From: Saccoglossus kowalevskii
Taxonomy: Eukaryota > Hemichordata > Enteropneusta > Harrimaniidae
Direction of reading: 5' to 3'
Assembly (NCBI RefSeq): GCF_000003605.2
Contig: NW_003113835.1
Location: 1-25,640, forward strand
Length of the DNA: 25,640 nucleotides
The notes under the pieces are model-generated. The model saw only the letters and a list, made by a program, of their open reading frames with translations. It was not told the DNA's origin and searched no databases. The translations under genes and the position numbers were made by a program. This document shows, piece after piece, positions 1-24,703 of the stretch; position 1 is the stretch's first letter, and each line of letters opens with the position of its first letter.

Positions 1-385
1 TCAACAAGGCCTATTTATCTTATATACAAGTTCTCACTCAACACCAATGCAGAGTCTGAGTATTGTATATACGAGTACAATAACTACAATGCGTATATGC
101 CTTATATACAAGTCCTCTCTCAACACCAATGCAGAATCTGAGTATTGTATATACGAGTACCCTAACTACAATGCCTATATATCTTGTATACAAGTCCTCT
201 CTCAACACCAAAGCAGAGTCTGAGTATTGTATATACGAGTACGCTAACTACAAGGTCTATATATCATATATACAAGTCCTCTCTCAACACCAATGCAGAG
301 TCTGAGTATTGTATATACGAGTACCCTAACTACAAGTCATATATATCTTATATACAAGTCCTCTCTCAACACCAATGCAGAGTCT
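1..385. repeat. Cassette 2, left-truncated: L-M-A'-E'-y
   Basis: The window opens inside an L unit (TTCTCACTC at 31-39). It continues with M 58-139 (TATATGCC), A' 140-221 (AATGCC, CTTGTATAC, CCAAAGC), E' 222-303 (GTACGCT, AAGGTCTA, TCATAT) and a y-like unit 304-385 with AAGTCATA in place of AAGGCATA. The same order recurs downstream, for example at 16438-16847. M here has a private GTACAATAAC in place of GTACCCTAAC. The first few bases (TCAACAAGG) look like a small lesion of TAACTACAAGG, or an edge effect. Confidence 0.85.
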
Positions 386-958
386 GAGTATTGTATATAC
401 GAGTACCCTAACTACAAGGCCTATGTATCTTGTATACAAGTTCTCTCTCAGCTCCAATGCAGAGTCAAATATTGTATATACGAGTACCCTAACTACAAGG
501 CCTATATATCTTATATACAAGTCCTCTCTCAACACCAATGCAGAGTCTGAGTATTGTATATACGAGTACCCTAACTACAAGGCATATATATATTGTATAC
601 AAGTCCTCTCTCAACACCAATGCATAGTCTGAGTATTGTATATACGAGTACCCAAACTACAAGGCCTATATATTTTGTATACAAGTCCTCTCTCAACACC
701 AGTGCAGAATCTGAGTATTGTATATACGAGTACCCTAACAACAAGGCCTATATATCTTATATACAAGGCCTCTCTCAACACCAATGCAGAGTCTGAGTAT
801 TGTATATATGAGTACCCTAACTATAAGGCCAATATATCTTATATACAAGTCATCTCTCAACACCAATGCAGAGTCTGAGTATTGTATATACGAGTACCCT
901 AACTACAAGGTATATATATCATATATACAAGTCCTCTCTCAACACCAATGCAGAATCT
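386..958. repeat. Cassette 1: H-x-G-B-C-D-E
   Basis: Seven units in a fixed order: H 386-466 (81 bp), x 467-548, G 549-630, B 631-712, C 713-794, D 795-876, E 877-958. H carries CAGCTCC and loses the junction TGA (GTCAAAT). D has a CpG-to-TpG change (TATATGAG near 805-812) that is also present in the D units near 2038 and 4254. It follows cassette 2 directly, as in several other places. Confidence 0.9.
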
Positions 959-1614
959 GAGTATTGTATATACGAGTACCCTAACTACAAGGCCTATATT
1001 CCTTATATACAAGTCCTCTCTCAACACCAATGCAAAATCTGAGTATTGTATATACGAGTACCCTAACTACAAGGCCTATATATCTTGTATACAAGTCCTC
1101 TCTCAACACCAATGCAGAATCTGAGTATTGTATATACGAGTACCCTAACTACAAGGCCTATATATCTTATATACAAGGCCTCTCTCAACACCAATGCAGA
1201 GTCCGATTATTGTATATACGAGTACGCTAACTACAAGGTCTATATATCATATATACAAGTCCTCTCTCAACACCAATGCAGAATCTGAGTATAGTATATA
1301 CGAGTACCCTAACTACAATGCCTATATATATTGTATACAAGTCCTCTCTCAACACCAATGCATAGTCTGAGTATTGTATATACGAGTACCCAAACTACAA
1401 GGCCTATATATTTTGTATACAAGTCCTCTCTCAACACCAGTGCAGAATCTGAGTATTGTATATACGAGTACCCTAACTACAAGGCATATATATCTTATAT
1501 ACAAGTCCTCTCTCAACACCAATGCAGAGTCTGAGTATTGTATATACGAGTACCCTAACTACAAGGCATATATATCTTATGTACAAGTCATCTCTCAACA
1601 CCAATGCAGAGTCT
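959..1614. repeat. Spacer units: F, A-like, C-like, E', G-like, B, y, y-like
   Basis: Eight 82-bp units with no gene. F at 959-1040 has TATTCC and GCAAAATCT. The unit at 1123-1204 has the CAAGGCC feature of C without AACAAC and ends GAGTCC. The unit at 1205-1286 starts GATTATTG. The unit at 1287-1368 has the rare GTATAGTAT and ends GCATAG. B follows at 1369-1450. The last two units are y types; the second has CTTATGTACAAGTCATC. The stretch up to about 1445 is copied near 3985-4890. Confidence 0.85.
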
Positions 1615-2187
1615 GAGTATTGTATATACGAGTACCCTAACTACAAGGCCTATGTATCTTGTATACAAGTTCTCTCTCAGCTCCAATGCAGAGTCAAATA
1701 TTGTATATACGAGTACCCTAACTACAAGGCCTATATATCTTATATACAAGTCCTCTCTCAACACCAATGCAGAGTCTGAGTATTGTATATACGAGTACCC
1801 TAACTACAAGGCATATATATATTGTATACAAGTCCTCTCTCAACACCAATGCATAGTCTGAGTATTGTATATACGAGTACCCAAACTACAAGGCCTATAT
1901 ATTTTGTATACAAGTCCTCTCTCAACACCAGTGCAGAATCTGAGTATTGTATATACGAGTACCCTAACAACAAGGCCTATATATCTTATATACAAGGCCT
2001 CTCTCAACACCAATGCAGAGTCTGAGTATTGTATATATGAGTACCCTAACTATAAGGCCTATATATCTTATATACAAGTCATCTCTCAACACCAATGCAG
2101 AGTCTGAGTATTGTATATACGAGTACCCTAACTACAAGGTATATATATCATATATACAAGTCTTCTCTCAACACCAATGCAGAATCT
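1615..2187. repeat. Cassette 1: H-x-G-B-C-D-E (second copy)
   Basis: Same order and lengths as 386-958, offset by 1229 bp (15 units less 1 bp). H spans 1615-1695 with CAGCTCC and GTCAAAT. D has the same TATATGAG CpG decay as the first copy. E has a private GTCTTCTC. Confidence 0.9.
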
Positions 2188-2433
2188 GAGTATTGTATAT
2201 ACGAGTACCCTAACTACAAGGCATATATATCATATATACAAGTCCTCTCTCAACACCAATGCAGAGTATGAGTATTGTATATACGAGTACCCTAACTACA
2301 AGGCCTATACATCATATATACAAGTCCCCTCTCAACACGAATGCAGAGTTTGAGTATTGTATATACGAGTACCCTAACTACAAGGCCTATATATCTTATA
2401 TACAAGTCCTCTCTCAACACCAATGCAAAATCT
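2188..2433. repeat. Three spacer units before a tandem block
   Basis: Units 2188-2269 (AAGGCATA, TCATAT), 2270-2351 (CTATACATC, GTCCCCTC, ACACGAATG: private changes) and 2352-2433 (near-consensus). No gene and no non-satellite sequence. Confidence 0.85.
2352..2433. repeat. Reference 82-bp unit (near-consensus copy)
   Basis: This copy is close to the commonest base at each position; it differs mainly by GCAAAATCT instead of GCAGAGTCT at its end. The unit holds one CpG (positions 15-16, in TATACGAG), one CCCTAA hexamer (21-26), an AGGCCT hexamer (32-37), an A/T-rich alternating stretch (37-51) and a pyrimidine-rich CCTCTCTC run (57-64). Positions about 58-82 joined to 1-19 of the next unit are nearly invariant across the window. 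Most sub-type differences lie at about 20-57. Confidence 0.9.
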
Positions 2434-3501
2434 GAGTATTGTATATACGAGTACCCTAACTACAAGGCCTATGTATCTTGTATACAAGTTCTCTCTCAGC
2501 TCCAATGCAGAGTCAAATATTGTATATACGAGTACCCTAACTACAAGGCCTATATATCTTATATACAAGTCCTCTCTCAACACCAATGCAGAGTCTGAGT
2601 ATTGTATATACGAGTACCCTAACTACAAGGCATATATATATATTGTATACAAGTCCTCTCTCAACACCAATGCATAGTCTGAGTATTGTATATACGAGTA
2701 CCCAAACTACAAGGCCTATATATTTTGTATACAAGTCCTCTCTCAACACCAGTGCAGAATCTGAGTATTGTATATACGAGTACCCTAACAACAAGGCCTA
2801 TATATCTTATATACAAGGCCTCTCTCAACACCAATGCAGAGTCTGAGTATTGTATATACGAGTACCCTAACTATAAGGCCTATATATCTTATATACAAGT
2901 CATCTCTCAACACCAATGCAGAGTCTGAGTATTGTATATACGAGTACCCTAACTACAAGGTCTATATATCATATATACAAGTCCTCTCTCAACACCAATG
3001 CAGAATCTGAGTATTGTATATACGAGTACCCTAACTACAAGGCCTATGTATCTTGTATACAAGTTCTCTCTCAGCTCCAATGCAGAGTCAAATATTGTAT
3101 ATACGAGTACCCTAACTACAAGGCCTATATATCTTATATACAAGTCCTCTCTCAACACCAATGCAGAGTCTGAGTATTGTATATACGAGTACCCTAACTA
3201 CAAGGCATATATATATATTGTATACAAGTCCTCTCTCAACACCAATGCATAGTCTGAGTATTGTATATACGAGTACCCAAACTACAAGGCCTATATATTT
3301 TGTATACAAGTCCTCTCTCAACACCAGTGCAGAATCTGAGTATTGTATATACGAGTACCCTAACAACAAGGCCTATATATCTTATATACAAGGCCTCTCT
3401 CAACACCAATGCAGAGTCTGAGTATTGTATATACGAGTACCCTAACTATAAGGCCTATATATCTTATATACAAGTCATCTCTCAACACCAATGCAGAGTC
3501 T
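2434..3501. repeat. 7-unit block in tandem (575-bp period), cassette 1 twice
   Basis: H starts at 2434 and again at 3009, 575 bp apart. Both copies contain x, an 84-bp G with two extra bases in its TATATATA run (2597-2680 and 3172-3255), B, C and D. From H to the end of D I see no difference between the copies. The shared 2-bp expansion, absent from most other G units, shows the block was duplicated as a whole. The first copy ends with E (2927-3008); the second is followed by J. Confidence 0.9.
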
Positions 3502-3993
3502 GAGTATTGTATATACGAGTTCCCTAACTACAAGGCATATATATGTTATATACAAGTCCTCTCTCAACACCAATGCAGAGTCTGAGTATTGTATATACGA
3601 GTACCCTAACTACAATGTCTATATATCATATATACAATTCCTCTCCCAACACCAATGCAGAATCTGAGTATTGTATATACGAGTACCCTAACTAAAAGGC
3701 ATATATATCTTATATACAAGTCCTCTCTCAACACCAATGCAGAGTCTGAGTATTGTATATACGAGTACCCTAACTACAATGCCTATATATATTGTATACA
3801 AGTCCTCTCTCAACACCAATGCAGAGTCTGAGTATTGTATATACGAGTACGCTAACTACAAGGCCTATATACCTTATATACAAGTCCTCTCTCAACACCA
3901 ATGCAGAGTCTGAGTATTGTATATACGAGTTCCCTAACTACAAGGCATATATATGTTATATACAAGTCCTCTCTCAACACCAATGCAGAGTCT
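3502..3993. repeat. Spacer units J-E-(CTAAAAGG)-A-I-J
   Basis: Six 82-bp units. J at 3502-3583 and 3912-3993 has GAGTTCCC and CATATATATGTTAT. The unit at 3584-3665 is an E variant with AATGTCTA and CAATTCCTC. 3666-3747 has CTAACTAAAAGG, a change shared with units near 5580, 6563, 10738 and 15237. I at 3830-3911 has GTACGCT and TACCTTAT. Similar strings recur in 5470-5880, 6450-6860 and 10628-11037. Confidence 0.85.
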
Positions 3994-4895
3994 GAGTATT
4001 GTATATACGAGTACCCTAACTACAAGGCATATATATATTGTATACAAGTCCTCTCTCAACACCAATGCATAGTCTGAGTATTGTATATACGAGTACCCAA
4101 ACTACAAGGCCTATATATTTTGTATACAAGACCTCTCTCAACACCAGTGCAGAATCTGAGTATTGTATATACGAGTACCCTAACAACAAGGCCTATATAT
4201 CTTATATACAAGGCCTCTCTCAACACCAATGCAGAGTCTGAGTATTGTATATATGAGTACCCTAACTATAAGGCCTATATATCTTATATACAAGTCATCT
4301 CTCAACACCAATGCAGAGTCTGAGTATTGTATATACGAGTACCCTAACTACAAGGTATATATATCATATATACAAGTCCTCTCTCAACACCAATGCAGAA
4401 TCTGAGTATTGTATATACGAGTACCCTAACTACAAGGCCTATATTCCTTATATACAAGTCCTCTCTCAACACCAATGCAAAATCTGAGTATTGTATATAC
4501 GAGTACCCTAACTACAATGCCTATATATCTTGTATACAAGTCCTCTCTCAACACCAATGCAGAATCTGAGTATTGTATATACGAGTACCCTAACTACAAG
4601 GCCTATATATCTTATATACAAGGCCTCTCTCAACACCAATGCAGAGTCCGAGTATTGTATATACGAGTACCCTAACTACAAGGTCTATATATCATATATA
4701 CAAGTCCTCTCTCAACACCAATGCAGAATCTGAGTATAGTATATACGAGTCCCCTAACTACAATGCCTATATATATTGTATACAAGTCCTCTCTCAACAC
4801 CAATGCATAGTCTGAGTATTGTATATACGAGTACCCAAACTACAAGGCCTATATATTTTGTATACAAGTCCTCTCTCAACACCAGTGCAGAATCT
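3994..4895. repeat. Copy of 549-1450: G-B-C-D-E-F-A-...-B
   Basis: The stretch repeats 549-1450 at an offset of 3445 bp (42 units plus 1 bp), with G at 3994-4075, E ending at 4403 and F next. Shared uncommon features include TATATGAG in D, GAGTCCG near 1200 and 4645, and GTATAGTAT near 1290 and 4735. Differences include GACCTC for GTCCTC near 4130 and GAGTCCCCT for GAGTACCCT near 4748. The copies are dispersed, not adjacent. Confidence 0.85.
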
Positions 4896-5387
4896 GAGTG
4901 TTGTATATACGAGTACCCGAACTACTAAGCCTATATATCTTGTATACAAGTCCTCTTTCTACACCAATGCAGAGTCCGAGTATTGTATATACGAGTACCC
5001 TAACTACAAGGTCTATATATCATATATACAAGTCCTCTCTCAACACCAATGCAGAATCTGAGTATAGTATATACGAGTACCCTAACTACAATGCCTATAT
5101 ATATTGTATACAAGTCCTCTCTCAACACCAATGCATAGTCTGAGTATTGTATATACGAGTACCCAAACTACAAGGCCTATATATCTTGTATACAAGTCCT
5201 CTCTCAACACCAATGCAGAGTCTGAGTATTGTATATACGAGTACCCAAACTACAAGGCCTATGTATTTTGTATACAAGTCCTCTCTCAACACCAGTGCAG
5301 AATCTGAGTATTGTATATACGAGTACCCTAACAACAAGGCCTATATATCTTATATGCAAGGCCTCTCTCAACACCAATGCAGAGTCT
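4896..5387. repeat. Spacer units with GTGTTG and TTTCTACACC markers
   Basis: Six units. 4896-4977 has GAGTGTTG, CCCGAACTACTAAGCC and CTCTTTCTACACC. 4978-5059 is E. 5060-5141 has GTATAGTAT and GCATAG. 5142-5223 has CCCAAAC with CTTGTATAC. 5224-5305 is a B variant (TGTATTTTG). 5306-5387 is C. TTTCTACACC recurs only near 11672 (offset 6717). The stretch from about 5040 to 5570 recurs near 23128-23658 (offset 18088). Confidence 0.85.
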
Positions 5388-6370
5388 GAGTATTGTATAT
5401 ACGAGTACCCTAACTATAAGGCCTATATATCTTATATACAAGTCATCTCTCAACACCAATGCAGAGTCTGAGTATTGTATATACGAGTACCCTAACTACA
5501 AGGTCTATATATCATATATACAATTCCTCTCTCAACACCAATGCAGAATCTGAGTATTGTATATACGAGTACCCTAACTAAAAGGCATATATATCTTATA
5601 TACAAGTCCTCTCTCAACACCAATGCAGAGTCTGAGTATTGTATATACGAGTACCCTAACTACAATGCCTATATATCTTGTATACATGTCCTCTCTCAAC
5701 ACCAATGCAGAGTCTGAGTATTGTATATACGAGTACGCTAACTACAAGGCCTATATACCTTATATACAAGTCCTCTCTCAACACCAATGCAGAGTCTGAG
5801 TATTGTATATACGAGTTCCCTAACTACAAGGCATATATATGTTATATACAAGTCCTCTCTCAACACCAATGCAGAATCTGAGTATTGTATACACGAGTAC
5901 CCTAACTACAAGGCATATATATCTTATATACAAGTCCTCTCTTAACACAAATGTAGAGTCAAATATTGTATACACGAGTACCCTAACTACAAGGCCTATA
6001 TATCTTATATACAAGTTCTCACTCAACACCAATGCAGAGTCTGAGTATTGTATATACGAGTACCCTAACAACAATGCCTATATGCCTTATATACAAGTCC
6101 TCTCTCAACACCAATGCAGAATCTGAGTATTGTATATACGAGTACCCTAACTACAATGCCTATATATCTTGTATACAAGTCCTCTATCAACACCAATGCA
6201 GAGTCTGAGTATTGTATATACGAGTACCCAAACTACAAGGCCTATATATTTTGTATACAAGTCCTCTCTCAATACCAGTGCGGAATCTGAATATTGTATA
6301 TACGAGTACCCTAACAACAAGGCCTATATATCTTATATACAAGGCCTCTCTCAACACCAATGCAGAGTCT
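5388..6370. repeat. 12-unit tandem duplication, copy 1 (983 bp)
   Basis: Runs from a D unit (5388) to the base before the next equivalent D (6371) and contains D-E-(CTAAAAGG)-y-A-I-J-K-L-M-A-B-C style units. Private markers shared with copy 2 are TATACATGTCC (near 5688), CTCTTAACAC with AATGTAGAG (K, 5880-5960), CCTCTATCAAC (near 6181), CTCAATACCAG (near 6268) and CTGAATATTG. One 81-bp K unit gives the length 983 instead of 984. Confidence 0.9.
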
Positions 6371-7352
6371 GAGTATTGTATATACGAGTACCCTAACTAT
6401 AAGGCCTATATATCTTATATACAAGTCATCTCTCAACACCAATGCAGAGTCTGAGTATTGTATATACGAGTACCCTAACTACAATGTCTATATATCATAT
6501 ATACAATTCCTCTCTCAACACCAATGCAGAATCTGAGTATTGTATATACGAGTACCCTAACTAAAAGGCATATATATCTTATATACAAGTCCTCTCTCAA
6601 CACCAATGCAGAGTCTGAGTATTGTATATACGAGTACCCTAACTACAATGCCTATATATCTTGTATACATGTCCTCTCTCAACACCAATGCAGAGTCTGA
6701 GTATTGTATATACGAGTACGCTAACTACAAGGCCTATATACCTTATATACAAGTCCTCTCTCAACACCAATGCAGAGTCTGAGTATTGTATATACGAGTT
6801 CCCTAACTACAAGCATATATATGTTATATACAAGTCCTCTCTCAACACCAATGCAGAATCTGAGTATTGTATACACGAGTACCCTAACTACAAGGCATAT
6901 ATATCTTATATACAAGTCCTCTCTTAACACCAATGTAGAGTCAAATATTGTATACACGAGTACCCTAACTACAAGGCCTATATATCTTATATACAAGTTC
7001 TCACTCAACACCAATGCAGAGTCTGAGTATTGTATATACGAGTACCCTAACTACAATGCCTATATGCCTTATATACAAGTCCTCTCTCAACACCAATGCA
7101 GAATCTGAGTATTGTATATACGAGTACCCTAACTACAATGCCTATATATCTTGTATACAAGTCCTCTATCAACACCAATGCAGAGTCTGAGTATTGTATA
7201 TACGAGTACCCAAACTACAAGGCCTATATATTTTGTATACAAGTCCTCTCTCAATACCAGTGCAGAATCTGAATATTGTATATACGAGTACCCTAACAAC
7301 AAGGCCTATATATCTTATATACAAGGCCTCTCTCAACACCAATGCAGAGTCT
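6371..7352. repeat. 12-unit tandem duplication, copy 2 (982 bp)
   Basis: Adjacent copy of the preceding block carrying all its private markers. I noticed about five differences: AATGTC for AAGGTC, ACAAGCATA for ACAAGGCATA (1 bp lost, unit 6781-6861), CACCAATG for CACAAATG, CTAACTACAATG for CTAACAACAATG, and CAGAATC for CGGAATC. Identity is thus about 99% or more, so the duplication looks recent. Confidence 0.9.
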
Positions 7353-8418
7353 GAGTATTGTATATACGAGTACCCTAACTATAAGGCCTATATATCTTAT
7401 ATACAAGTCATCTCTCAACACCAATGCAGAGTCTGAGTATTGTATATACGAGTACCCTAACTACAAGGTCTATATATCATATATACAAGTCCTCTCTCAA
7501 CACCAATGCAGAATCTGAGTAGTGTATATACGAGTACCCTAACTACAAGGCATATATATCTTATATACAAGTCCTCTCTCAACACCAATGCAGAGTCTGA
7601 GTATTGTATATACGAGTACCCTAACTACAATGCCTATATATCTTGTATACAAGTCCTCTCTCAACACCAATGCAGAGTCTGAGTATTGTATATACGAGTA
7701 CCCTAACTACAAGGCCTATGTATCTTGTATACAAGTCCTCTCTCAACACCAATGCAGAATCTGAGTATTGTATATACGAGTACCCTAACAACAAGGCCTA
7801 TATATCTTATATACAAGGCCTCTCTCAACACCAATGCAGAGTCTGAGTATTGTATATACGAGTACCCTAACTATAAGGCCTATATATCTTATATACAAGT
7901 CATCTCTCAACACCAATGCAGAGTCTGAGTATTGTATATACGAGTACCCTAACTACAAGGTCTATATATCATATATACAAGTCCTCTCTCAACACCAATG
8001 CAGAATCTGAGTATTGTATATACGAGTACCCTAACTACAAGGCCTATATTCCTTATATACAAGTCCTCTCTCAACACCAATGCAAAATCTGAGTATTGTA
8101 TATACGAGTACCCTAACTACAATGCCTATATATCTTGTATACAAGTCCTCTCTCAACACCAATGCAGAGTCTGAGTATTGTATATACGAGTACCCTAACT
8201 ACAAGGCCTATATATCTTATATACAAGGCCTCTCTCAACACCAATGCAGAGTCTGAGTATTGTATATACGAGTACCCTAACTATAAGGCCTATATATCTT
8301 ATATACAAGTCATCTCTCAACACCAATGCAGAATCTGAGTATTGTATATACGAGTACCCTAACTACAATGCCTATATATATTGTATACAAGTCCTCTCTC
8401 AACACCAATGCATAGTCT
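7353..8418. repeat. Thirteen 82-bp spacer units with two C-D pairs
   Basis: Order: D, E, y (with GTAGTG), A, a TATGTATCTTG unit, C 7763-7844, D, E, F 8009-8090, A, C-like, D, then an AATGCC/ATATTG/GCATAG unit 8337-8418. The first few units look like a partial third copy of the preceding 12-unit block. About 7440-8000 recurs near 12112-12672 (offset 4672). No gene. Confidence 0.85.
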
Positions 8419-8909
8419 GAGTATTGTATATACGAGTACCCAAACTACAAGGCCTATATATCTTATATACAAGTCCTCTCTTAACACCAATGCAGAGTCA
8501 AATATTGTATACACGAGTACCCTAACTACAAGGCCTATATATCTTATATACAAGTTCTCACTCAACACCAATGCAGAGTCTGAGTATTGTATATACGAGT
8601 ACCCTAAATACAATGCCTATATGCCTTATATACAAGTCCTCTCTCAACACCAATGCAGAATCTGAGTATTGTATATACGAGTACCCTAACTACAATGCCT
8701 TTATATCTTATATACAAGTGCTCTCTCAACACCAAATCAGAGTCTGAGTATTGTATATACGAGTACGCTAACTACAAGGTCTATATATCATATATACAAG
8801 TCCTCTCTCAACACCAATGCAGAGTCTGAGTATTGTATATACGAGTACCCTAACTACAAGGCATATATATCTTATATACAAGTCCTCTCTCAACACCAAT
8901 GCAGAGTCT
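8419..8909. repeat. Cassette 2: K'-L-M-A*-E'-y
   Basis: K' 8419-8499 (81 bp, CCCAAAC plus CTCTTAACAC, ends GTCAAAT), L 8500-8581, M 8582-8663, A* 8664-8745, E' 8746-8827, y 8828-8909, followed directly by H. Private changes CCCTAAATAC, GCCTTTATATC, CAAGTGCTC and CCAAATCAGAG are all shared with 22739-23147, 14320 bp away. Confidence 0.88.
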
Positions 8910-10381
8910 GAGTATTGTATATACGAGTACCCTAACTACAAGGCCTATGTATCTTGTATACAAGTTCTCTCTCAGCTCCAATGCAGAGTCAAATATTGTA
9001 TATACGAGTACCCTAACTACAAGGCCTATATATCTTATATACAAGTCCTCTCTCAAGACCAATGCAGAGTCTGATTATTGTATATACGAGTACCCTAACT
9101 ACAAGGCCTATATATCATATATACAAGTCCTCTCTCAAAACCAATGCAGAATTTGAGTATTGTATATACGAGTACCCTAACTACAAGGCCTATATATCTT
9201 ATATACAAGTCCTCTCTCAAGACCAATGCAGAGTCTGATTATTGTATATACGAGTACCCTAACTACAAGGCCTATATATCATATATACAAGTCCTCTCTC
9301 AAAACCAATGCAGAATTTGAGTATTGTATATACGAGTACCCTAACTATAAGGCCTATATATATTATGTACAAGTCATCTCTCAACACCAATGCAGAGTCT
9401 GATTATTGTATATACGAGTACCCTAACTACAAGGTCTATATATCATATATACAAGTCCTCTCTCAACACCAGTGCAGATTCTGAGTATTGTATATATGAT
9501 TACCCTAACTACAAGGCCTATATATCTTATATAGAAGTCCTCTTTCATCACCAATGCAGGGTCAAATATTGTATATACGAGTACCCTAACTACAAGGCTT
9601 ATATATCAGATATACAAGTCCTCTCTCAACACCAGTGCAGAATCTGAGTATTGTATATACGAGTACCCTAACTACAAGGACTATATATCTTGTATACAAG
9701 TCTTCTCTCAACATAAGGCAGAGTCTGAGTATTGTATATACGAGTACCCTAACTACAAGGCCTATATATCATGTATACAAATCCTCTCTCAACACCAATG
9801 CAGAATTTGAGTATTGTATATACGAGTACCCTAACTACAAGGCCTATATATCTTATATACAAGTCCTCTCTCAAGACCAATGCAGAGTCTGAGTATTGTA
9901 TATACGAGTACCCTAACTATAAGGCCTGTATATCTTATATACAAGTCATCTCTCAACACCAATGCAGAGTCTGAGTATTGTATATACGCGTACCCTAACT
10001 ACAAGGTCTATATATCATATATACAAGTCCTCTCTCAACACCAATGCAGAATCTGAGTATTGTATATACGAGTACCCTAACTACAATGCCTATATATCTT
10101 GTATACAAGTGATCTCTCAACACCAATGCAGAGTCTGATTATTGTATATACGAGTACCCTAACCACAAGGTCTATATATCATATATACAAGTCCTCTCTC
10201 AACACCAATGCAGAATCTGAGTATTGTATATACGAGTACCCTAACTACAAGGCCTATATATCTTATATACAAGTCCTCTCTCAACACCAATACAGAATCA
10301 AATATTGTATATACGAGTACCCTAACTACAAGACATATATATCTTGTATACAAGTCCTCTCTCAACACTAATGCAGAGTCT
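8910..10381. repeat. Divergent domain beginning with H
   Basis: After H (8910-8990) the units carry many changes not seen elsewhere: CAAGACC, CAAAACC, GAATTTGAG, CAGATTCTG, ATGATTACC, ATAGAAG, TTTCATCACC, CAGGGTC, ATATCAGATAT, ACATAAGGCAG, TACGCGTACC, AACCACAAGG and AATACAGAATC. Three 81-bp units occur (9483-9563, 9646-9726, 10219-10299). A two-unit tandem copy sits at 8991-9154 and 9155-9318. The G-B-C-D group is absent. The domain is still pure satellite and has no gene. Confidence 0.85.
8991..9318. repeat. Two-unit (164-bp) tandem duplication
   Basis: Unit pair 8991-9154 recurs at 9155-9318. In each pair the first unit has CAAGACC and the second has GATTATTG, CAAAACC and GAATTTGAG. These changes are rare elsewhere, so the pair was copied as a dimer. 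The CAAGACC/GAATTT combination reappears at about 9727-9890 in a different arrangement. Confidence 0.85.
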
Positions 10382-13499: not shown

Positions 13500-13737
13500 A
13501 TATACGAGTACCCTAACTACAAGCCCTATATTCCTTATATACAAGTCCTCTCTCAACACCAATGCAAAATCTGAGTATTGTATATACGAGTACCCAAACT
13601 ACAAGGCCTATATATTTTGTATACAAGTCCTCTTTTCAACACCAGTGCAGAATCTGAGTATTGTATATACGAGTACCCTAACAACAAGGCCTATATTCCT
13701 TATATACAAGTCCTCTCTCAACACCAGTGCAGAATCT
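13500..13737. repeat. Aberrant 73-bp and 83-bp units
   Basis: Unit 13500-13572 lacks the first nine bases of the unit, so ATCT runs straight into ATATACGAG. It also has AAGCCCTATATTCC. Unit 13573-13655 has one extra T (CCTCTTTTCAACACC) on a CCCAAAC/ATTTTG background. Unit 13656-13737 combines AACAACAAGG with TATTCC. The 73/83 pair recurs only at 24704-24859. Confidence 0.9.
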
Positions 13738-14199: not shown

Positions 14200-15162
14200 A
14201 AGTCCTCTTTCAACACCAATGCAGAGTCTGAGTATTGTATATACGAGTACCCTAACTACAAGGTCTATATATCATATATACAAGTCCTCTCTCAACACCA
14301 ATGCAGAGTCTGAGTATTGTATATACGAGTACCCTAACTACAAGGCATATATATCTTATATACAAGTCCTCTCTCAACACCAATGCAGAGTCTGAGTATT
14401 GTATATACGAGTACCCTAACTACAAGGCATATATATCTTATGTACAAGTCATCTCTCAACACCAATGCAGAGTCTGATTATTGTATATACGAGTACCCTA
14501 ACTACAAGGTCTATATCATATATGCAAGTCCTCTCTCAACACCAATGCAGAATCTGAGTATTGTATATACGAGTACCCTAACTACAATGCCTATATATCT
14601 TATATACAAGTTCTCACTCAACACCAATGCAGAGTCTGTGTATTGTATATACGAGTACCCTAACTACAATGCCTATATGCCTTATATACAAGTCCTCTCT
14701 CAACACCAATGCAGAATCTGAGTATTGTATACACGAGTACCCTAACTACAATGCCTATATATCTTGTATACAAGTCCTCTCTCAACACCAAAGCAGAGTC
14801 TGAGTATTGTATATACGAGTACGCTAACTACAAGGTCTATATATCATATCTACAAGTCCTCTATCAACACCAATGCAGAGTCTGAGTATTGTATATACGA
14901 GTACCCTAACTACAAGGCATATATATCTTATATACAAGTCCTCTCTCAACACCAATGCAGAGTCTGAGTATTGTATATACGAGTACCCTAACTACAAGGC
15001 ATATATATCGTATGTACAAGTCATCTCTCAACACCAATGCAGAGTCTGATTATTGTATATACGAGTACCCTAACTACAAGGTCTATATCATATATACAAG
15101 TCCTCTCTCAACTCCAATGCAGAATCTGAGTATTGTATATACGAGTACCCTAACTACAATGC
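14200..15162. repeat. 7-unit tandem block with 572-bp period
   Basis: About 14200-14590 recurs at 14772-15162. Both copies contain y, then a y variant with TATGTACAAGTCATC, then a GATTATTG unit shortened to 80 bp by loss of a TA step (GTCTATATCATAT at 14476-14555 and 15048-15127). L 14556-14637 and M 14638-14719 lie between them, with a private CTGTGTATTG at the L-M junction. A' 14720-14801 and E' 14802-14883 follow. Confidence 0.87.
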
Positions 15163-15621
15163 CTATATATCTTGTATACAAGTCCTCTCTCAACACCAAT
15201 GCAGAGTCTGAGTATTGTATATACGAGTACCCTAACTAAAAGGCCTATATACCTTATATACAAGTCCTCTCTCAACACCAATGCAGAGTCTGAGTATTGT
15301 ATATACGAGTACCCTAACAACAAGGCCTATATATATATTATATACAAGGCCTCTCTCAACAGCAATGCAGAGTCTGAGTATTGTATATACGAGTACCCTA
15401 ACTATAAGGCCTATATATCTTATATACAAGTCATCTCTCAACACCAATGCAGAGTCTGAGTATTGTATATACGAGTACCCTAACTACAAGGTCTATATAT
15501 CATATATACAAGTCCTCTCTCAACACCAATGCACAATCTGAGTATTGTATATACGAGTTCCCTAACTACAAGGCATATATATCTTATATACAAGTCCTCT
15601 CTCAACACCAATGCAGAATCT
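15163..15621. repeat. Spacer units with one 84-bp unit
   Basis: Units after the tandem block include one with CTAACTAAAAGGCC and TACCTTAT, the 84-bp C-like unit 15292-15375 (AACAACAAGG, two extra bases, CAACAGCAATG), D, E and a J-like unit (GAGTTCCC with CTTAT). No gene. Confidence 0.82.
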
Positions 15622-16111
15622 GAGTATTGTATACACGAGTACCCTAACTACAAGGCATATATATCTTATATACAAGTCCTCTCTTAACACCAATGTAAGT
15701 CAAATATTGTATACACGAGTACCCTAACTACAAGGCCTATATATCTTATATACAAGTTCTCACTCAACACCAATGCAGAGTCTGAGTATTGTATATACGA
15801 GTACCCTAACTACAATGCCTATATGCCTTATATACAAGTCCTCTCTCAACACCAATGCAGAATCTGAGTATTGTATATACGAGTACCCTAACTACAATGC
15901 CTATATATCTTGTATACAAGTCCTCTCTCAACACCAAAGCAGAGTCTGAGTATTGTATATACGAGTACGCTAACTACAAGGTATATATATCATATATACA
16001 AGTCACCTCTCAACACCAATGCAGAGTCTGAGTATTGTATATACGAGTACCCTAACTACAATGCCTATATATCTTGTATACAAGTCCTCTCTCAACACCA
16101 ATGCAGAGTCT
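15622..16111. repeat. Cassette 2: K-L-M-A'-E' followed by A
   Basis: K 15622-15701 is only 80 bp because it has both the GTCAAAT junction and a lost G (AATGTAAGTC). Then L 15702-15783, M 15784-15865, A' 15866-15947 (CCAAAGC), E' 15948-16029 and A 16030-16111, with H next at 16112. K has the TATACACGAG variant also present in other K units. Confidence 0.88.
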
Positions 16112-16356
16112 GAGTATTGTATATACGAGTACCCTAACTACAAGGCCTATGTATCTTGTATACAAGTTCTCTCTCAGCTCCAATGCAGAGTCAAATATTG
16201 TATATACGAGTACCCTAACTACAAGGCCTATATATCTTATATACAAGTCCTCTCTCAACACCAATGCAGAGTCTGAGTATTGTATATACGAGTACCCTAA
16301 CTACAAGGCATATATATCTTATATACAAGTCCTCTCTCAACAACAATGCAGAATCT
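16112..16356. repeat. H-x-y leading into cassette 2
   Basis: H 16112-16192, x 16193-16274, then y 16275-16356 with CAACAACAATG. Here G-B-C-D does not follow x; the array returns directly to K. This is one of the places where cassette order is broken at a unit boundary. Confidence 0.85.
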
Positions 16357-17256
16357 GAGTATTGTATATACGAGTACCCTAACTACAAGGCATATGTATG
16401 TTATATACAAGTCCTCTCTTAACACAAATGCAGAGTCAAATATTGTATACACGAGTACCCTAACTACAAGGCCTATATATCTTATATACAAGTTCTCACT
16501 CAACACCAATGCAGAGTCTGAGTATTGTATATACGAGTACCCTAACTACAATGTCTATATGCCTTATATACAAGTCCTCTCTCAACACCAATGCAGAATC
16601 TGAGTATTGTATATACGAGTACCCTAACTACAATGCCTATATATCTTGTATACAAGTCCTCTCTCAACACCAAAGCAGAGTCTGAGTATTGTATATACGA
16701 GTACGCTAACTACAAGGTCTATATATCATATATACAAGTCCTCTCTCAACACCAATGCAGAGTCTGAGTATGGTATATACGAGTACCCTAACTACAAGGC
16801 ATATATATCTTATATACAAGTCCTCTCTCAACACCAATGCAGAGTCTGAGTATTGTATATACGAGTACCCTAACTACAAGTCCTATGTATCTTGTATACA
16901 AGTTCTCTCTCAGCTCCAATGCAGAGTCAAATATTGTATATACGAGTACCCTAACTACAAGGCATATATATATTGTATACAAGTCCTCTCTCAACACCAA
17001 TGCATAGTCTGAGTATTGTATATACGAGTACCCAAACTACAAGGCCTATATATTTTGTATACAAGTCCTCTCTCAACACCAGTGCAGAATCTGAGTATTG
17101 TATATACGAGTACGCTAACTACAAGGCCTATATACCTTATATACAAGTCCTCTCTCAACACCAATGCAGAGTCTGAGTATTGTATATACGAGTTCCCTAA
17201 CTACAAGGCATATATATCTTATATACAAGTCCTCTCTCAACACCAATGCAGAATCT
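16357..17256. repeat. 11-unit tandem duplication, copy 1 (900 bp)
   Basis: K 16357-16437, L, M (AATGTCTATATGCC), A', E', y (with TATGGTATATACG), H 16848-16928, G 16929-17010, B 17011-17092, then I and J-like units. H is followed directly by G, with no x. Two 81-bp units give 900 instead of 902 bp. Confidence 0.9.
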
Positions 17257-18238
17257 GAGTATTGTATACACGAGTACCCTAACTACAAGGCATATGTATG
17301 TTATATACAAGTCCTCTCTTAACACAAATGCAGAGTCAAATATTGTATACACGAGTACCCTAACTACAAGGCCTATATATCTTATATACAAGTTCTCACT
17401 CAACACCAATGCAGAGTCTGAGTATTGTATATACGAGTACCCTAACTACAATGTCTATATGCCTTATATACAAGTCCTCTCTCAACACCAATGCAGAATC
17501 TGAGTATTGTATATACGAGTACCCTAACTACAATGCCTATATATCTTGTATACAAGTCCTCTCTCAACACCAAAGCAGAGTCTGAGTATTGTATATACGA
17601 GTACGCTAACTACAAGGTCTATATATCATATATACAAGTCCTCTCTCAACACCAATGCAGAGTCTGAGTATGGTATATACGAGTACCCTAACTACAAGGC
17701 ATATATATCTTATATACAAGTCCTCTCTCAACACCAATGCAGAGTCTGAGTATTGTATATACGAGTACCCTAACTACAAGGCCTATGTATCTTGTATACA
17801 AGTTCTCTCTCAGCTCCAATGCAGAGTCAAATATTGTATATACGAGTACCCTAACTACAAGGCATATATATATTGCATACAAATCCTCTCTCAACACCAA
17901 TGCATAGTCTGAGTATTGTATATACGAGTACCCAAACTACAAGGCCTATATATTTTGTATACAAGTCCTCTCTCAACACCAGTGCAGAATCTGAGTATTG
18001 TATATACGAGTACCCTAACAACAAGGCCTATATATCTTATATACAAGGCCTCTCTCAACACCAATGCAGAGTCTGAGTATTGTATATACGAGTACCCTAA
18101 CTATAAGGCCTATATATCTTATATACAAGTCATCTCTCAACACCAATGCAGAGTCTGAGTATTGTATATACGAGTACCCTAACTACAAGGTCTATATATC
18201 ATATATACAAGTCCTCTCTCAACACCAATGCAGAATCT
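17257..18238. repeat. 11-unit tandem duplication, copy 2, plus C-D-E
   Basis: Repeats copy 1 at an offset of 900 bp, including AATGTCTATATGCC, TATGGTATATACG and the H-G junction without x. Differences noted are AAGGCC for AAGTCC in H, TTGCATACAAATCC for TTGTATACAAGTCC in G, and TATACACGAG for TATATACGAG in K. After B (17911-17992) it continues with C, D and E (to 18238), whereas copy 1 continued with I and J. Confidence 0.9.
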
Positions 18239-18482
18239 GAGTATTGTATATACAAGTACCCTAACTACAATGCCTATATATCTTGTATACAAGTCCTCTC
18301 TCAACACCAATGCAGAGTCTGAGTATTGTATATACGAGTACGCTAACTACAAGGCCTATATACCTTATATACAAGTCCTCTCTCAACACCAATGCAGAGT
18401 CTGAGTATTGTATATACGAGTTCCCTAACTACAAGGCATATATCTTATATACAAGTCCTCTCTCAACACCAATGCAGAATAT
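18239..18482. repeat. Spacer units A-I-J with an 80-bp J
   Basis: A has TATACAAGTACC (CpG-to-CpA change). I follows with GTACGCT and TACCTTAT. J-like unit 18403-18482 is 80 bp through loss of one TA step (GGCATATATCTTAT). This loss, with the following GTCAAAT junction, produces the longest apparent open frame in the window (18283-18693, 136 codons), which I do not regard as a gene. Confidence 0.85.
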
Positions 18483-18890
18483 GAGTATTGTATACACGAG
18501 TACCCTAACTACAAGGCATATATATCTTATATACAAGTCCTCTCTTAACACCAATGCAGAGTCAAATATTGTATACACGAGTACCCTAACTACAAGGCCT
18601 ATATATCTTATATACAAGTTCTCACTCAACACCAATGCAGAGTCTGAGTATTGTATATACGAGTACCCTAACTACAATGCCTATATGCCTTAATACAAGT
18701 CCTCTCTCAACACCAATGCAGAATCTGAGTATTGTATATACGAGTACCCTAACTACAATGCCTATATATCTTGTATACAAGTCCTCTCTCAACACCAAAG
18801 CAGAGTCTGAGTATTGTATATACGAGTACCCTAACTACAAGGCATATATATCTTATATACAAGTCCTCTCTCAACACCAATGCAGAGTCT
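18483..18890. repeat. Cassette 2: K-L-M-A'-y
   Basis: K 18483-18563 (81 bp), L 18564-18645, M 18646-18726 (81 bp, GCCTTAATAC has lost one base), A' 18727-18808 (CCAAAGC), y 18809-18890, then H. E' is missing compared with other copies. Confidence 0.88.
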
Positions 18891-19463
18891 GAGTATTGTA
18901 TATACGAGTACGCTAACTACAAGGCCTATGTATCTTGTATACAAGTTCTCTCTCAGCTCCAATGCAGAGTCAAATATTGTATATACGAGTACCCTAACTA
19001 CAAGGCCTATATATCTTATATACAATTCCCCTCTCAACACCAATGCAGAGTCTGAGTATTGTATATACGAGTACCCTAACTACAAGGCATATATATATTG
19101 TATACAAGTCCTCTCTCAACACCAATGCATAGTCTGAGTATTGTATATACGAGTACCCAAACTACAAGGCCTATATATTTTGTATACAAGTCCTCTCTCA
19201 ACACCAGTGCAGAATCTGAGTATTGTATATACGAGTACCCTAACAACAAGGCCTATATATCTTATATACAAGGCCTCTCTCAACACCAATGCAGAGTCTG
19301 AGTATTGTATATACGAGTACCCTAACTATAAGGCCTATATATCTTATATACAAGTCATCTCTAAACACCAATGCAGAGTCTGAGTATTGTATATTCGAGT
19401 ATCCTAACTACAAGGTCTATATATCATATATACAAGTCCTCTCTCAACACCAATGCAGAATCT
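18891..19463. repeat. Cassette 1: H-x-G-B-C-D-E
   Basis: Full seven-unit cassette. H has GTACGCT and x has CAATTCCCCTC, matching 12927-13499 at offset 5964. Private changes are CTCTAAACACC in D, and TATATTCGAG with GTATCCTAAC in E. Confidence 0.9.
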
Positions 19464-19709
19464 GAGTATTGTATATACGAGTACCCTAACTACAAGGCCT
19501 ATATTCCTTATATACAAGTCCTCTCTCAACACCAATGCAAAATCTGAGTATTGTATATACGAGTACCCTAACTACAATGCCTATATATCTTGTATACAAG
19601 TCCTCTCTCAACACCAATGCAGAGTCTGAGTATTGTATATACGAGTACCCTAACTACAAGGCATATATATCTTATATACAAGTCCTCTCTCAACACCAAT
19701 GCAGAGACT
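19464..19709. repeat. Spacer units F-A-y
   Basis: F 19464-19545 (TATTCC, GCAAAATCT), A 19546-19627, y 19628-19709 ending GCAGAGACTGAG. The GAGACTGAG end is shared with units near 20113, 21264 and 21752. The A-y-H string recurs at offset 1557. Confidence 0.85.
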
Positions 19710-20282
19710 GAGTATTGTATATACGAGTACCCTAACTACAAGGCCTATGTATCTTGTATACAAGTTCTCTCTCAGCTCCAATGCAGAGTCAAATATTGTA
19801 TATACGAGTACCCTAACTACAAGGCCTATATATCTTATATACAAGTCCTCTCTCAACACCAATGCAGAGTCTGAGTATTGTATATACGAGTACCCAAACT
19901 ACAAGGCATATATATATTGTATACAAGTCCTCTCTCAACACCAATGCATAGTCTGAGTATTGTATATACGAGTACCCAAACTACAAGGCCTATATATTTT
20001 GTATACAAGTCCTCTCTCAACACCAGTGCAGAATCTGAGTATTGTATATACGAGTACCCTAACAACAAGGCCTATATATCTTATATACAAGGCCTCTCTC
20101 AACACCAATGCAGAGACTGAGTATTGTATATACGAGTACCCTAACTATAAGGCCTATATATCTTATATACAAGTCATCTCTCAACACCAATGCAGAGTCT
20201 GAGTATTGTATATACGAGTACCCTAACTACAAGGTCTATATATCATATATACAAGTCCTCTCTCAACACCAATGCAGAATCT
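19710..20282. repeat. Cassette 1: H-x-G'-B-C-D-E
   Basis: Seven units. G' 19873-19954 carries CCCAAAC, normally a B feature, on a G background (AAGGCATA, ATATTG, GCATAG). This looks like a short exchange or conversion from the adjacent B unit. C ends GAGACTGAG. Confidence 0.88.
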
Positions 20283-20938
20283 GAGTATTGTATATACGAG
20301 TACCCTAACTACAAGGCCTATATTCCTTATATACAAGTCCTCTCTCAACACCAATGCAAAATCTGAGTATTGTATATACGAGTACCCTAACTACAATGCC
20401 TATATATCTTGTATACAAGTCCTCTCTCAACACCAATGCAGAGTCTGAGTATTGTATATACGAGTACCCTAACTACAAGGCCTATATATTTTATATACAA
20501 GGCCTCTCTCAACACCAATGCAGAGTCTGAGTATTGTATATACGAGTACCCTAACTATCAGGCCTATATATCTTATATACAAGTCATCTCTCAACACCAA
20601 TGCAGAGTCTGAGTATTGTATATACGAGTACCCTAACTACAAGGTCTATATATCATATATACAAGTCCTCTCTCAACACCAATGCAGAATCTGAGTATTG
20701 TATATACGAGTACCCTAACTACAAGGCCTATATTCCTTATATACAAGTCCTCTCTCAACACCAATGCAAAATCTGAGTATTGTATATACGAGTACGCTAA
20801 CTACAAGGCCTATATACCTTATATACAAGTCCCCTCTCAACACCAATGCAGAGTCTGAGTATTGTATATACGAGTTCCCTAACTACAAGGCATATATATC
20901 TTATATACAAGTCCTCTCTCAACACCAATGCAGAATCT
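20283..20938. repeat. Spacer units F-A-C-like-D-E-F-I-J
   Basis: Eight 82-bp units. Notable changes are TATATTTTATATAC in the C-like unit, CTATCAGG in D (private) and GTCCCCTC in I. The E-F pair occurs twice within about 400 bp (E 20201-20282 then F 20283-20364; E 20611-20692 then F 20693-20774). No gene. Confidence 0.85.
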
Positions 20939-21266
20939 GAGTATTGTATACACGAGTACCCTAACTACAAGGCCTATATATCTTATATACAAGTTCTCAC
21001 TCAACACTAATGCAGAGTCTGAGTATTGTATATACGAGAACCCTAACTACAATGCCTATATGCCTTATATACAAGTCCTCTCTCGACACCAATGCAGAAT
21101 CTGAGTATTGTATATACGAGTACCCTAACTACAATGCCTATATATCTTGTATACAAGTCCTCTCTCAACACCAAAGCAGAGTCTGAGTATTGTATATACG
21201 AGTACCCTAACTACAAGGCATATATATCTTATATACAAGTCCTCTCTCAACACCAATGCAGAGACT
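20939..21266. repeat. Cassette 2, partial: L-M-A'-y
   Basis: L 20939-21020 begins with GAGTATTG rather than AAATATTG and has no K before it. M 21021-21102 has GAGAACCC and CTCGACACC. A' 21103-21184 has CCAAAGC. y 21185-21266 ends GAGACTGAG. H follows directly. Confidence 0.87.
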
Positions 21267-22085
21267 GAGTATTGTATATACGAGTACCCTAACTACAAGG
21301 CCTATGTATCTTGTATACAAGTTCTCTCTCAGCTCCAATGCAGAGTCAAATATTGTATATACGAGTACCCTAACTACAAGGCCTATATATCTTATATACA
21401 AGTCCTCTCTCAACACCAATGCAGAGTCTGAGTATTGTATATACGAGTACCCTAACTACAAGGCATATATATCTTATATACAAGTCCTCTCTCAACACCA
21501 ATGCAGAATCTGAGTATTGTATATACGAGTACCCTAACTACAAGGCATATATATCTTATATACAAGTCCTCTCTTAACACCAATGCAGAATCTGAGTATT
21601 GTATATACGAGTACCCTAACTACAAGGCATATATATCTTATATAGAAGTCCTCTCTTAACACCAATGCAGAGTCTAAGTATTGTATATACGAGTACCCTA
21701 ACTACAAGGCCTATATATCTTGTATACAAGTCCTCTCTCAACACCAATGCAGAGACTGAGTATTGTATATACGAGTACCCTAACTACAATGCCTATATAT
21801 CTTGTATACAAGTCCTCTCTCAACACCAATGCAGAGTCTGAGTATTGTATATACGAGTACCCTAACTACAAGGCCTATATATCTGGTATACCAGTCCTCT
21901 CTCAACACAAGTGCAGAATCTGAGTATTGTATATACGACTACCCTAACTACAATGCCTATATATCTTGTATACAAGTCATCTCTCAACACCAATGCAGAG
22001 TCTGAGTATTGTATATACGAGTACCGTAACTACAAGGTCTATATATCATATATACAAGTCCTCTCTCAACACCAATGCAGAATCT
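21267..22085. repeat. H-x followed by y-type and A-type units
   Basis: H 21267-21347 and x 21348-21429, then several AAGGCATA units, two with CTCTTAACAC but a normal TCTGAG-type junction (K-like without GTCAAAT). These are followed by A-type units with ATCTGGTATACCAG and CACAAGTGC changes and an E unit with GTACCGTAAC. G-B-C-D is absent. No gene. Confidence 0.84.
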
Positions 22086-22738
22086 GAGTATTGTATATAC
22101 GAGTACCCTAACTACAAGCCTATATATCTTGTATACAAGTCCTCTCTCAACACCAATGCAGAGTCTGAGTATTGTATATACGAGTACGCTAACTACAAGG
22201 CCTATATACCTTATATACAAGTCCTCTCTCAACACCAATGCAGAGTCAAATATTGTATATACGAGTACCCTAACTACAAGGCCTATATATCTTATATACA
22301 AGTCCTCTCTCAACACCAATGCAGAGTCTGAGTATTGTATATACGAGTACCCTAACTACAAGGCCTATGTATCTTGTATACAAGTCCTCTCTCAACACCA
22401 ATGCAGAATCTGAGTATTGTATATACGAGTACCCTAACTACAATGCCTATATATCTTGTATACAAGTCCTCTCTCAACACCAATGCAGAGTCTGAGTATT
22501 GTATATACGAGTACCCAAACTACAAGGCCTATATATCTTATATACAAGTCCTCTCTTAACACCAATGCAGAGTCAAATATTGTATACACGAGTACCCTAA
22601 CTACAAGGCCGATATATCTTGTATACAAGTCCTCTCTCAACACCAATGCAGAATCTGAGTATTGTATATACGAGTACCCTAACTACAAAGCCTATATATC
22701 TTGTATACAAGTCCTCTCTCAACACCAATGCATAGTCT
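22086..22738. repeat. Units with three 81-bp members
   Basis: 22086-22166 has lost one G (CTACAAGCCTATA). I-type 22167-22247 ends GTCAAAT on an ordinary CAACACC background. K-like 22494-22574 has CTCTTAACAC and GTCAAAT. About 22130-22490 recurs near 23685-24045 at offset 1555. No gene. Confidence 0.85.
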
Positions 22739-23147
22739 GAGTATTGTATATACGAGTACCCAAACTACAAGGCCTATATATCTTATATACAAGTCCTCTC
22801 TTAACACCAATGCAGAGTCAAATATTGTATACACGAGTACCCTAACTACAAGGCCTATATATCTTATATACAAGTTCTCACTCAACACCAATGCAGAGTC
22901 TGAGTATTGTATATACGAGTACCCTAAATACAATGCCTATATGCCTTATATACAAGTCCTCTCTCAACACCAATGCAGAATCTGAGTATTGTATATACGA
23001 GTACCCTAACTACAATGCCTTTATATCTTATATACAAGTGCTCTCTCAACACCAAATCAGAGTCTGAGTATTGTATATACGAGTACGCTAACTACAAGGT
23101 CTATATATCATATATACAAGTCCTCTCTCAACACCAATGCAGAATCT
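22739..23147. repeat. Cassette 2: K'-L-M-A*-E'
   Basis: K' 22739-22819, L 22820-22901, M 22902-22983, A* 22984-23065, E' 23066-23147. It carries the same private changes as 8419-8827 (CCCTAAATAC, GCCTTTATATC, CAAGTGCTC, CCAAATCAGAG), 14320 bp away. After E' the two copies diverge: here a GTATAGTAT unit follows, there y and H. Confidence 0.9.
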
Positions 23148-24212
23148 GAGTATAGTATATACGAGTACCCTAACTACAATGCCTATATATATTGTATACA
23201 AGTCCTCTCTCAACACCAATGCATAGTCTGAGTATTGTATATACGAGTACCCAAACTACAAGGCCTATATATCTTGTATACAAGTCCTCTCTCAACACCA
23301 ATGCAGAGTCTGAGTATTGTATATACGAGTACCCAAACTACAAGGCCTATATATTTTGTATACAAGTCCTCTCTCAACACCAGTGCAGAATCTGAGTATT
23401 GTATATACGAGTACCCTAACAACAAGGCCTATATATCTTATATACAAGGCCTCTCTCAACACCAATGCAGAGTCTGAGTATTGTATATACGAGTACCCTA
23501 ACTATAAGGCCTATATATCTTATATACAAGTCATCTCTCAACACCAATGCAGAGTCTGAGTATTGTATATACGAGTACCCTAACTACAAGGTCTATATAT
23601 CATATATACAATTCCTCTCTCAACACCAATGCAGAATCTGAGTATTGTATATACGAGTACCCTAACTACAATGCCTATATATCTTGTATACAAGTCCTCT
23701 CTCAACACCAATGCAGAGTCTGAGTATTGTATATACGAGTACGCTAACTACAAGGCCTATATACCTTATATACAAGTCCTCTCTCAACACCAATGCAGAG
23801 TCAAATATTGTATATACGAGTACCCTAACTACAAGGCCTATATATCTTATATACAAGTCCTCTCTCAACACCAATGCAGAGTCTGAGTATTGTATATACG
23901 AGTACCCTAACTACAAGGCCTATGTATCTTGTATACAAGTCCTCTCTCAACACCAATGCAGAATCTGAGTATTGTATATACGAGTACCCTAACTACAATG
24001 CCTATATATCTTGTATACAAGTCCTCTCTCAACACCAAAGCAGAGTCTGAGTATTGTATATACGAGTACGCTGACTACAAGGTATATATATCATATATAC
24101 AAGTCCTCTCTCAACACCAATGCAGAGTCTGAGTATTGTATATACGAGTACCCTAACTACAAGGCATATATATCTTATATACAAGTCCTCTCTCAACACC
24201 AATGCAGAGTCT
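23148..24212. repeat. Spacer units, copy of 5060-5570, then a copy of 22130-22490
   Basis: The first part matches about 5040-5570 at offset 18088, including GTATAGTAT, two successive CCCAAAC units, C, D and CAATTCCTC. The second part matches 22130-22490 at offset 1555, including an I unit with the GTCAAAT junction (23722-23802). It ends with A', an E-like unit with GTACGCTGAC, and y. No gene. Confidence 0.85.
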
Positions 24213-24703
24213 GAGTATTGTATATACGAGTACCCTAACTACAAGGCCTATGTATCTTGTATACAAGTTCTCTCTCAGCTCCAATGCAGAGTCAAATATT
24301 GTATATACGAGTACCCTAACTACAAGGCATATATATATTGTATACAAGTCCTCTCTCAACACCAATGCATAGTCTGAGTATTGTATATACGAGTACCCAA
24401 ACTACAAGGCCTATATATTTTGTATACAAGTCCTCTCTCAACACCAGTGCAGAATCTGAGTATTGTATATACGAGTACCCTAACAACAAGGCCTATATAT
24501 CTTATATACAAGGCCTCTCTCAACACCAATGCAGAGTCTGAGTATTGTATATACGAGTACCCTAACTATAAGGCCTATATATCTTATATACAAGTCATCT
24601 CTCAACACCAATGCAGAGTCTGAGTATTGTATATACGAGTACCCTAACTACAAGGTCTATATATCATATATACAAGTCCTCTCTCAACACCAATGCAGAA
24701 TCT
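24213..24703. repeat. Cassette 1 without x: H-G-B-C-D-E
   Basis: H 24213-24293, G 24294-24375, B 24376-24457, C 24458-24539, D 24540-24621, E 24622-24703. The H-G junction without x is shared with 16848-17010 and 17748-17910, so all three probably descend from one loss of x. Confidence 0.88.

Follow-up and report, generated by a model that had tools for sequence, protein, structure and literature searches.

Irregular higher-order repeats are already well known, and the 82-bp satellite that fills the whole of contig C751 (25,640 bp, analysed over its full length and referred to below as the window) without interruption is ordinary satellite DNA of that class. In the irregular arrays of human alpha-satellite, as here, diverged monomers stand in a recurring block order. 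For some human chromosomes TRASH gives mixed periods, as on chromosome 8, with 7, 8, 11 and 15 where the published period is 11 (PMC10199239, in extract), and monomers within an alpha-satellite block are approximately 70% identical (PMC8122249, in extract). The alpha-satellite unit is approximately 171 bp long against 82 bp here, and the units here, unlike those of alpha-satellite, are only about 8% apart and form no long run of one regular period. For Arabidopsis CEN178 the higher-order structure is given as a table of block duplications (PMC10199239, in extract). The likeness to CEN178 lies in this block-duplication structure; unit length and host differ, and the array here is known from sequence alone. 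CEN178 is not known to have one dominant period. The centromeric repeat m3cp of mulberry, Morus notabilis, has an 82-bp unit (PMC10541557, in extract). The comparison with m3cp is one of unit length, and any kinship of sequence would be hypothetical. The host seems unlike that of m3cp, given that the exact plant telomere string is absent from the assembly search, a weak sign, and that C4081, another contig bearing the satellite, carries open frames with the mucin WxxW domain, which we take to be a sign of an animal. TCsat18 of the beetle Tribolium castaneum is a short-unit satellite, one variant of which measures 82 bp, and its higher-order repeats are dimeric (PMC10218199, in extract); compared by description, it differs in its 73-bp base unit and in an order that is dimeric only.

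Tandem Repeats Finder places the repeat at 4-25638 with 313.2 copies and 91% matches. Wrap-around alignment resolves 313 whole units, where an initial annotation of the window had counted 312, and start-to-start spacing is exactly 82 bp in 271. Among the units are 155 distinct sequences, 107 of them present once. The mean difference is 7.87% between window units (6.45 bases) and 8.14% between neighbours. The assembly (572,110,611 bp in 4,830 contigs), by its size that of a eukaryote, contains further copies, with at least 126 matches on three contigs besides C751, whose own copies are not in that list, and one of these contigs, C924 (48,915 bp), is satellite along its whole length. The window thus holds a long head-to-tail non-coding array of a short unit, a satellite by definition. 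It is highly improbable that the array is instead a repeat gene coding for a protein, or an RNA array. There are 155 open reading frames (ORFs) of at least 60 aa, as expected of a frequent repeat, but 82 is no multiple of 3, no ORF in the 25.6 kb is longer than 136 aa, a search of the window found neither an Rfam family nor a tRNA, and the consensus unit folds no better than shuffles (z -0.32 for one strand as DNA, z -0.44 for the other as RNA). An exact 31-mer and a 24-letter pattern of the satellite gave 0 matches in genome and viral contig collections of prokaryotes, viruses and plasmids, and blastn of window positions 1-2500 against phages and plasmids gave no match, which says little on eukaryotes given the make-up of these collections. 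A search of literature text for six short sub-strings of the unit gave no hit.

The 82-bp unit falls into about 23-29 monomer sub-types. Our hand labels, under which 27 window units stay unlabelled, separate these sub-types well: leaving the unlabelled units out, the mean difference is 1.97% within and 7.99% between types. The initial annotation had described two cassettes of sub-types in fixed order and had set clustering against shuffled label strings as the check. The order does recur beyond chance. At each of five automatic clustering cut-offs, none of 500 shuffles reaches the observed neighbour information, nor the observed cover of label strings that occur three times or more, the latter at every string length having any such string. 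At t=2, neighbouring labels have a mutual information of 3.80, where shuffles average 2.62 (maximum 2.71), and 39 windows are covered by label 4-mers with three or more occurrences, against 0 when shuffled. Under the hand labels, 184 of 312 steps lead from a type to its most frequent successor, compared with 60 (maximum 73) in 2,000 shuffles. The result does not hang on labels, as the cost of describing the array by self-copying is 704 against 1,280 (minimum 1,250) for 40 whole-unit shuffles. By the TRASH definition of a higher-order repeat (paired blocks of at least 3 units, alike position by position, counted here by our own code and not the program), a strict threshold of at most 1 difference per unit yields 120 block pairs against 1.8 shuffled (maximum 5 of 60), in which 217 of the 313 units take part. 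The array is therefore a higher-order repeat at this threshold. It has no single dominant block period: periods of 7, 10, 11, 12, 15 and 19 stand side by side, and lag 10 alone rises above the 95% limit of the shuffle maxima (12 against 11).

As the hand-label rules were written after seeing the units, the test on C924 matters most. Its 597 units, 306 of them distinct, have 597 spacings that are all 80-84 bp, and 292 are identical to some window unit. Label and successor rules from the window were applied unchanged, leaving out 166 steps that start from unlabelled units, and the successor rule correctly predicts 192 of the 430 labelled units, compared with 30 (maximum 48) in 1,000 shuffles. 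Window and C924 share exact stretches of up to 646 bp, with 166 pairs of at least 200 bp; the count of common blocks, with 3 units or more, is 45 for exact agreement, against 0.05 expected, and 207 for at most 1 difference, against 4.15 (20 shuffles). The block order seen in C751 thus recurs on C924. A third cassette of 12 units, K-D-Z-R-I-I'-S-H-X-B-A-G, is frequent on C924, where three of its types number 11 units each; the same types number 1, 1 and 2 in the window.

C751 could also be a wrong walk through the assembler's repeat graph, its order being partly artificial. C751 and C924 do consist only of repeats, and C3014 and C4081 break off inside satellite. A short-read graph walk, however, switches only inside exact matches of at least k-mer length, so that the observed switch intervals, shorter than 21 bp in 54 of 118 cases and shorter than 55 bp in 95, argue against an artefact. 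Private variants also mark single copies (the 107 sequences present once), and we regard this account as improbable.

The array can be described as 95 copied segments with a mean of 270 bp and 167 mismatches. No single unit phase fits more than 51 of the 118 breakpoint intervals, which argues against a fixed recombination site. The distances between identical units reveal the scale of copying. At lags of 1-4 units the window has 5 identical pairs against 15.7 expected (P 0.003), while at lags of 10-15 units it has 47 against 22.6, a number reached by 0 of 3,000 shuffles. Expressed as a rate per lag, which ignores insertions and hence departs slightly in counts from the shuffle test, identical pairs occur at 0.0048 (lags 1-4), 0.0272 (10-15) and 0.010-0.014 (16-240) in the window, and at 0.0063, 0.0185 and 0.007-0.011 (16-450) on C924. 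The dip and the excess support the initial annotation in its claim that exchange acted on blocks more than on single units. Exact repeats of at least 250 bp form 44 pairs, 35 of them more than 20 units apart; the nine nearer pairs have lags of 7, 10, 11, 12, 13, 15 (twice) and 19 (twice) units. The two-unit duplication at 9019-9346 indicates that short exchanges are rare, not absent.

Exchange within units was traced through hybrids, whose left part is predicted by the preceding unit and right part by the following one. The test covered the 62 units that lie 2 or more bases from every different unit of the window. Sixteen of these gain at least 2 bases when described as the hybrid predicted by their context, against 3.3 (maximum 10 of 300) with contexts permuted. 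The clearest cases, at 22195 and 23750, are alike: the hybrid is exact, and the nearest different window unit is 3 bases off. An earlier version of the test on 65 units was discarded, as its control favoured the context parents, and the permuted-context test replaced it. Together, the lag pattern and the in-register hybrids point to homologous exchange of multi-unit blocks.

We therefore favour, with a probability of roughly 0.85, an array of irregular higher-order repeats whose multi-unit blocks are exchanged by homologous recombination. Recombination between misaligned copies, by unequal crossing-over and over longer distances by break-induced copying or conversion, would duplicate, delete and transplant tracts some 8-17 units long (0.7-1.4 kb), and private changes would come from point mutation. 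Order would be kept because whole tracts move, and kept only in part because tract ends may fall anywhere. In simulations the best-fitting block limits have medians of 8 and 17 units for C924. For the window these medians are 6 and 19, compared with 6 and 27 over all runs. Several points weigh against this interpretation. The order of units in C751 is taken from the assembly alone, and C924, though separate DNA, belongs to the same assembly and hence does not represent a second individual. Type F accounts for ten of the 16 hybrid units, which reduces them to 6 distinct hybrid sequences. The lag curve is not fully level, with rates of 0.0217 at lags 241-312 in the window and 0.0053 at 451-596 on C924. 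With 5 differences allowed, the published TRASH default, block pairs are no more numerous than in shuffles (1,317 against 1,594); we attribute this to a threshold that is too loose for units only 6.45 bases apart on average. Finally, the simulations leave the split between tandem duplication and long-range copying unsettled. For the window, no tandem-only run is among the best 60 and 10 are among the best 100. For C924 pure long-range copying fails, with 1 of the best 80 of 6,956 runs, whereas 54 of these are mixed and 25 tandem-only, and the single best run is tandem-only with a 12-mer founder.

Two histories are conceivable within this exchange of blocks, and they differ in how the array began. 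The initial annotation had derived both cassettes from one higher-order unit of roughly 13-15 monomers, later scrambled; the recurrent order and the block exchange stand, whereas the single unit of that length is not established. A regular higher-order repeat of one period (13-15, or more widely 10-17) that once filled the array has a chance only just short of even. Higher-order starts, two thirds of all window simulation runs, supply 55 of the best 60 of 7,681 runs and 95 of the best 100 of 14,527, and the heaviest cycle under hand labels, of 17 types, covers 152 of the 312 window steps (shuffle mean 11.8, maximum 26) and 142 of 596 on C924 (10.6, maximum 22). This cycle nevertheless shifts with labels and data. 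Automatic labels give 9 types and 91 steps in the window. When C751 and C924 are taken together, with 29 types and labels on 609 of 910 units, the top two cycles by weight each comprise 12 types, and one of the two draws on several types that are rare in the window. The window itself contains cycles of 7 to 19 types side by side, those of 14 to 16 types close behind the 17-type cycle and others shorter, at 7-8 types. An older, shorter cycle within the 17-type cycle was not supported (best lag 6, P 0.36). Founder lengths of 10 and 17 are not separated by the window simulations, and for C924 the best 80 runs are split almost evenly between 12-mer starts (42) and flat starts (38), each about half of all runs.

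That near-even split speaks equally for a history with no regular ancestor, in which diverged monomers would be reshuffled in a steady state by overlapping block duplications and deletions, and the recurring order would record only the shared descent of neighbours. Simulations from identical units with blocks of 5-20 gave recurring 4-unit label strings in numbers no lower than the observed 63, with means of 130, 123 and 70. These early runs, which had narrow settings and in every one of these a highest one-lag count above the observed 12, were later replaced. For the window, by contrast, flat starts make up one third of all runs but contribute no more than 5 to the best 60 and 5 to the best 100. 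We consider this history a credible minority alternative.

The cassettes and other features are collected in Table 1. In hand labels C-E-F-D-B-A-G corresponds to the first cassette of the initial annotation and V-O-N-M-R-I to the second, its unit cut being phase 54 of the present analysis. All six of its full first cassettes read C-E-F-D-B-A-G, the one it placed at 12927 ending in a G shortened to 73 bp, and the four reduced first cassettes and nine whole or partial second cassettes are likewise found where it put them. It had the second cassette abut the opening unit of the first in at least seven places, and C indeed follows the second cassette at 7 of 11 O-N occurrences. Its list lacked C units at 8938, 16140 and 21295 and O-N pairs at 5989 and 6971. 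The third cassette-1 copy and the directly adjoining one share a 517-bp exact repeat (2429/3004).

Table 1. Positions in the window of the satellite array, its cassettes and single features.
Feature	Position	Strand	Basis or remark
82-bp satellite array, 313 whole units	1..25640	.	Tandem Repeats Finder, wrap-around alignment, contig extent
Cassette 2, O-N-M-R-I, then C	4..413	+	unit labels
Cassette 1, C-E-F-D-B-A-G, 7 units	414..986	+	unit labels
Cassette 1, C-E-F-D-B-A-G	1643..2215	+	unit labels
Cassette 1, C-E-F-D-B-A-G	2462..3036	+	next cassette adjoins at lag 7
Cassette 1 reduced, C-E-F-D-B-A	3037..3529	+	unit labels
Bridge D-B-A-G-Q-W-L-Y-V-O-N linking both cassettes	5252..6152	+	repeated 12 units on at 6235
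Cassette 2, V-O-N-(M-like)-R-I, then C	8447..8937	+	unit labels
Pocket of 16 units rich in private changes	9265..10573	+	distance to nearest other unit
Cassette 1, final unit shortened to 73 bp	12955..13518	+	unit labels, wrap-around alignment
Cassette 2, O-N-M-R-I	14584..14993	+	unit labels
Cassette 2, V-O-N-M-R, then H unit, then C	15650..16057	+	unit labels
Cassette 2, V-O-N-M-R-I, then C	16385..16875	+	unit labels
Cassette 1 reduced, C-F-D	16876..17120	+	unit labels
Cassette 2, V-O-N-M-R-I, then C	17285..17775	+	unit labels
Cassette 1 reduced, C-F-D-B-A-G	17776..18266	+	unit labels
Cassette 2 reduced, V-O-N-M-I, then C	18511..18918	+	unit labels
Cassette 1, C-E-F-D-B-A-G	18919..19491	+	unit labels
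Cassette 1, C-E-F-D-B-A-G	19738..20310	+	unit labels
Cassette 2 reduced, O-N-M-I, then C	20967..21294	+	unit labels
Hybrid unit, left as L type expected after W, right as unit expected before E	22195..22275	+	exact hybrid fit
Cassette 2 reduced, V-O-N-(M-like)	22767..23093	+	unit labels
Cassette 1 reduced, C-F-D-B-A-(73-bp G)	24241..24722	+	repeats 12955 copy, 604 bp exact at 13093/24297

The pocket of units rich in private changes has a mean distance to the nearest other unit of 2.56, against 0.58 overall, which 0 of 5,000 shuffles reach. Stretches of it are exact on C924 (513 bp from window 9598 and 430 bp from 9549), and the pocket too therefore travels as a block. The two units shortened to 73 bp, at 13446-13518 and 24650-24722, have one shared gap and sit in the 604-bp exact repeat whose copies are 11.2 kb apart. 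Within the unit, phases 57-65 (consensus TATTGTATA) have 3 recent changes against 18.3 expected. This is only a hint of constraint, weak because the box was picked after seeing the data and is A+T-rich. Phase 18 is G in 108 of the 313 units; with the rest unchanged, this G turns phases 15-26 into CTTGTATACAAG, a perfect 12-bp palindrome with 60 exact copies in the window, where the A form, CTTATATACAAG, has 139. A half-unit repeat at offset 37, with 35 of 82 positions alike against a 95% shuffle limit of 34, is borderline and not claimed.

Exchange is expected to be weaker at the edges of an array. The satellite end of C3014 is 1,189 bp long, with 14 units that each differ from their closest window unit by 0-8 bases (mean 4.1), and C4081 starts with a satellite remnant of 160-180 bp; these diverged ends fit decay at array edges. 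On C3014, 50 bp lie between the edge of the 82-bp array and the end of a 36-bp tandem repeat (L011:8314-8880), and the flank there has a G+C content of only 24.7%. Beyond its satellite remnant C4081 (L013, L020) holds a series of open frames that carry mucin WxxW domains: Pfam Mucin2_WxxW was found in all three frames tested (E 6e-22 or better), and three more are alike by eye. Near them, L013:4378-5409 on the same contig is a minisatellite, read as a 343-aa open frame of the short repeated motif DMNPDNLVGQCKQT and open in more than one frame.

By its class the array most likely belongs to heterochromatin, with a putative centromeric, pericentromeric or subtelomeric role. The frequency of identical pairs is 0.0082 between the contigs, 0.0082 within C924 and 0.0130 within the window. 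It is possible, though doubtful, that exchange favours tracts of about 10-15 units (0.8-1.2 kb) and falls off little with distance over about 450 units (37 kb) or between contigs, the copies forming one well-mixed pool. Such a pool would suggest long-range templated copying of tracts of about 1 kb, or reinsertion of excised circles, and not mainly local unequal crossing-over. Because sub-type order, hybrids and breakpoints are directly readable in this array and a second contig allows them to be checked, one can estimate how long the exchanged satellite tracts are, and the lag curve, with a dip at 1-4 units, a peak at 10-15 and a roughly level course beyond, provides a signature that may be tested in other arrays.

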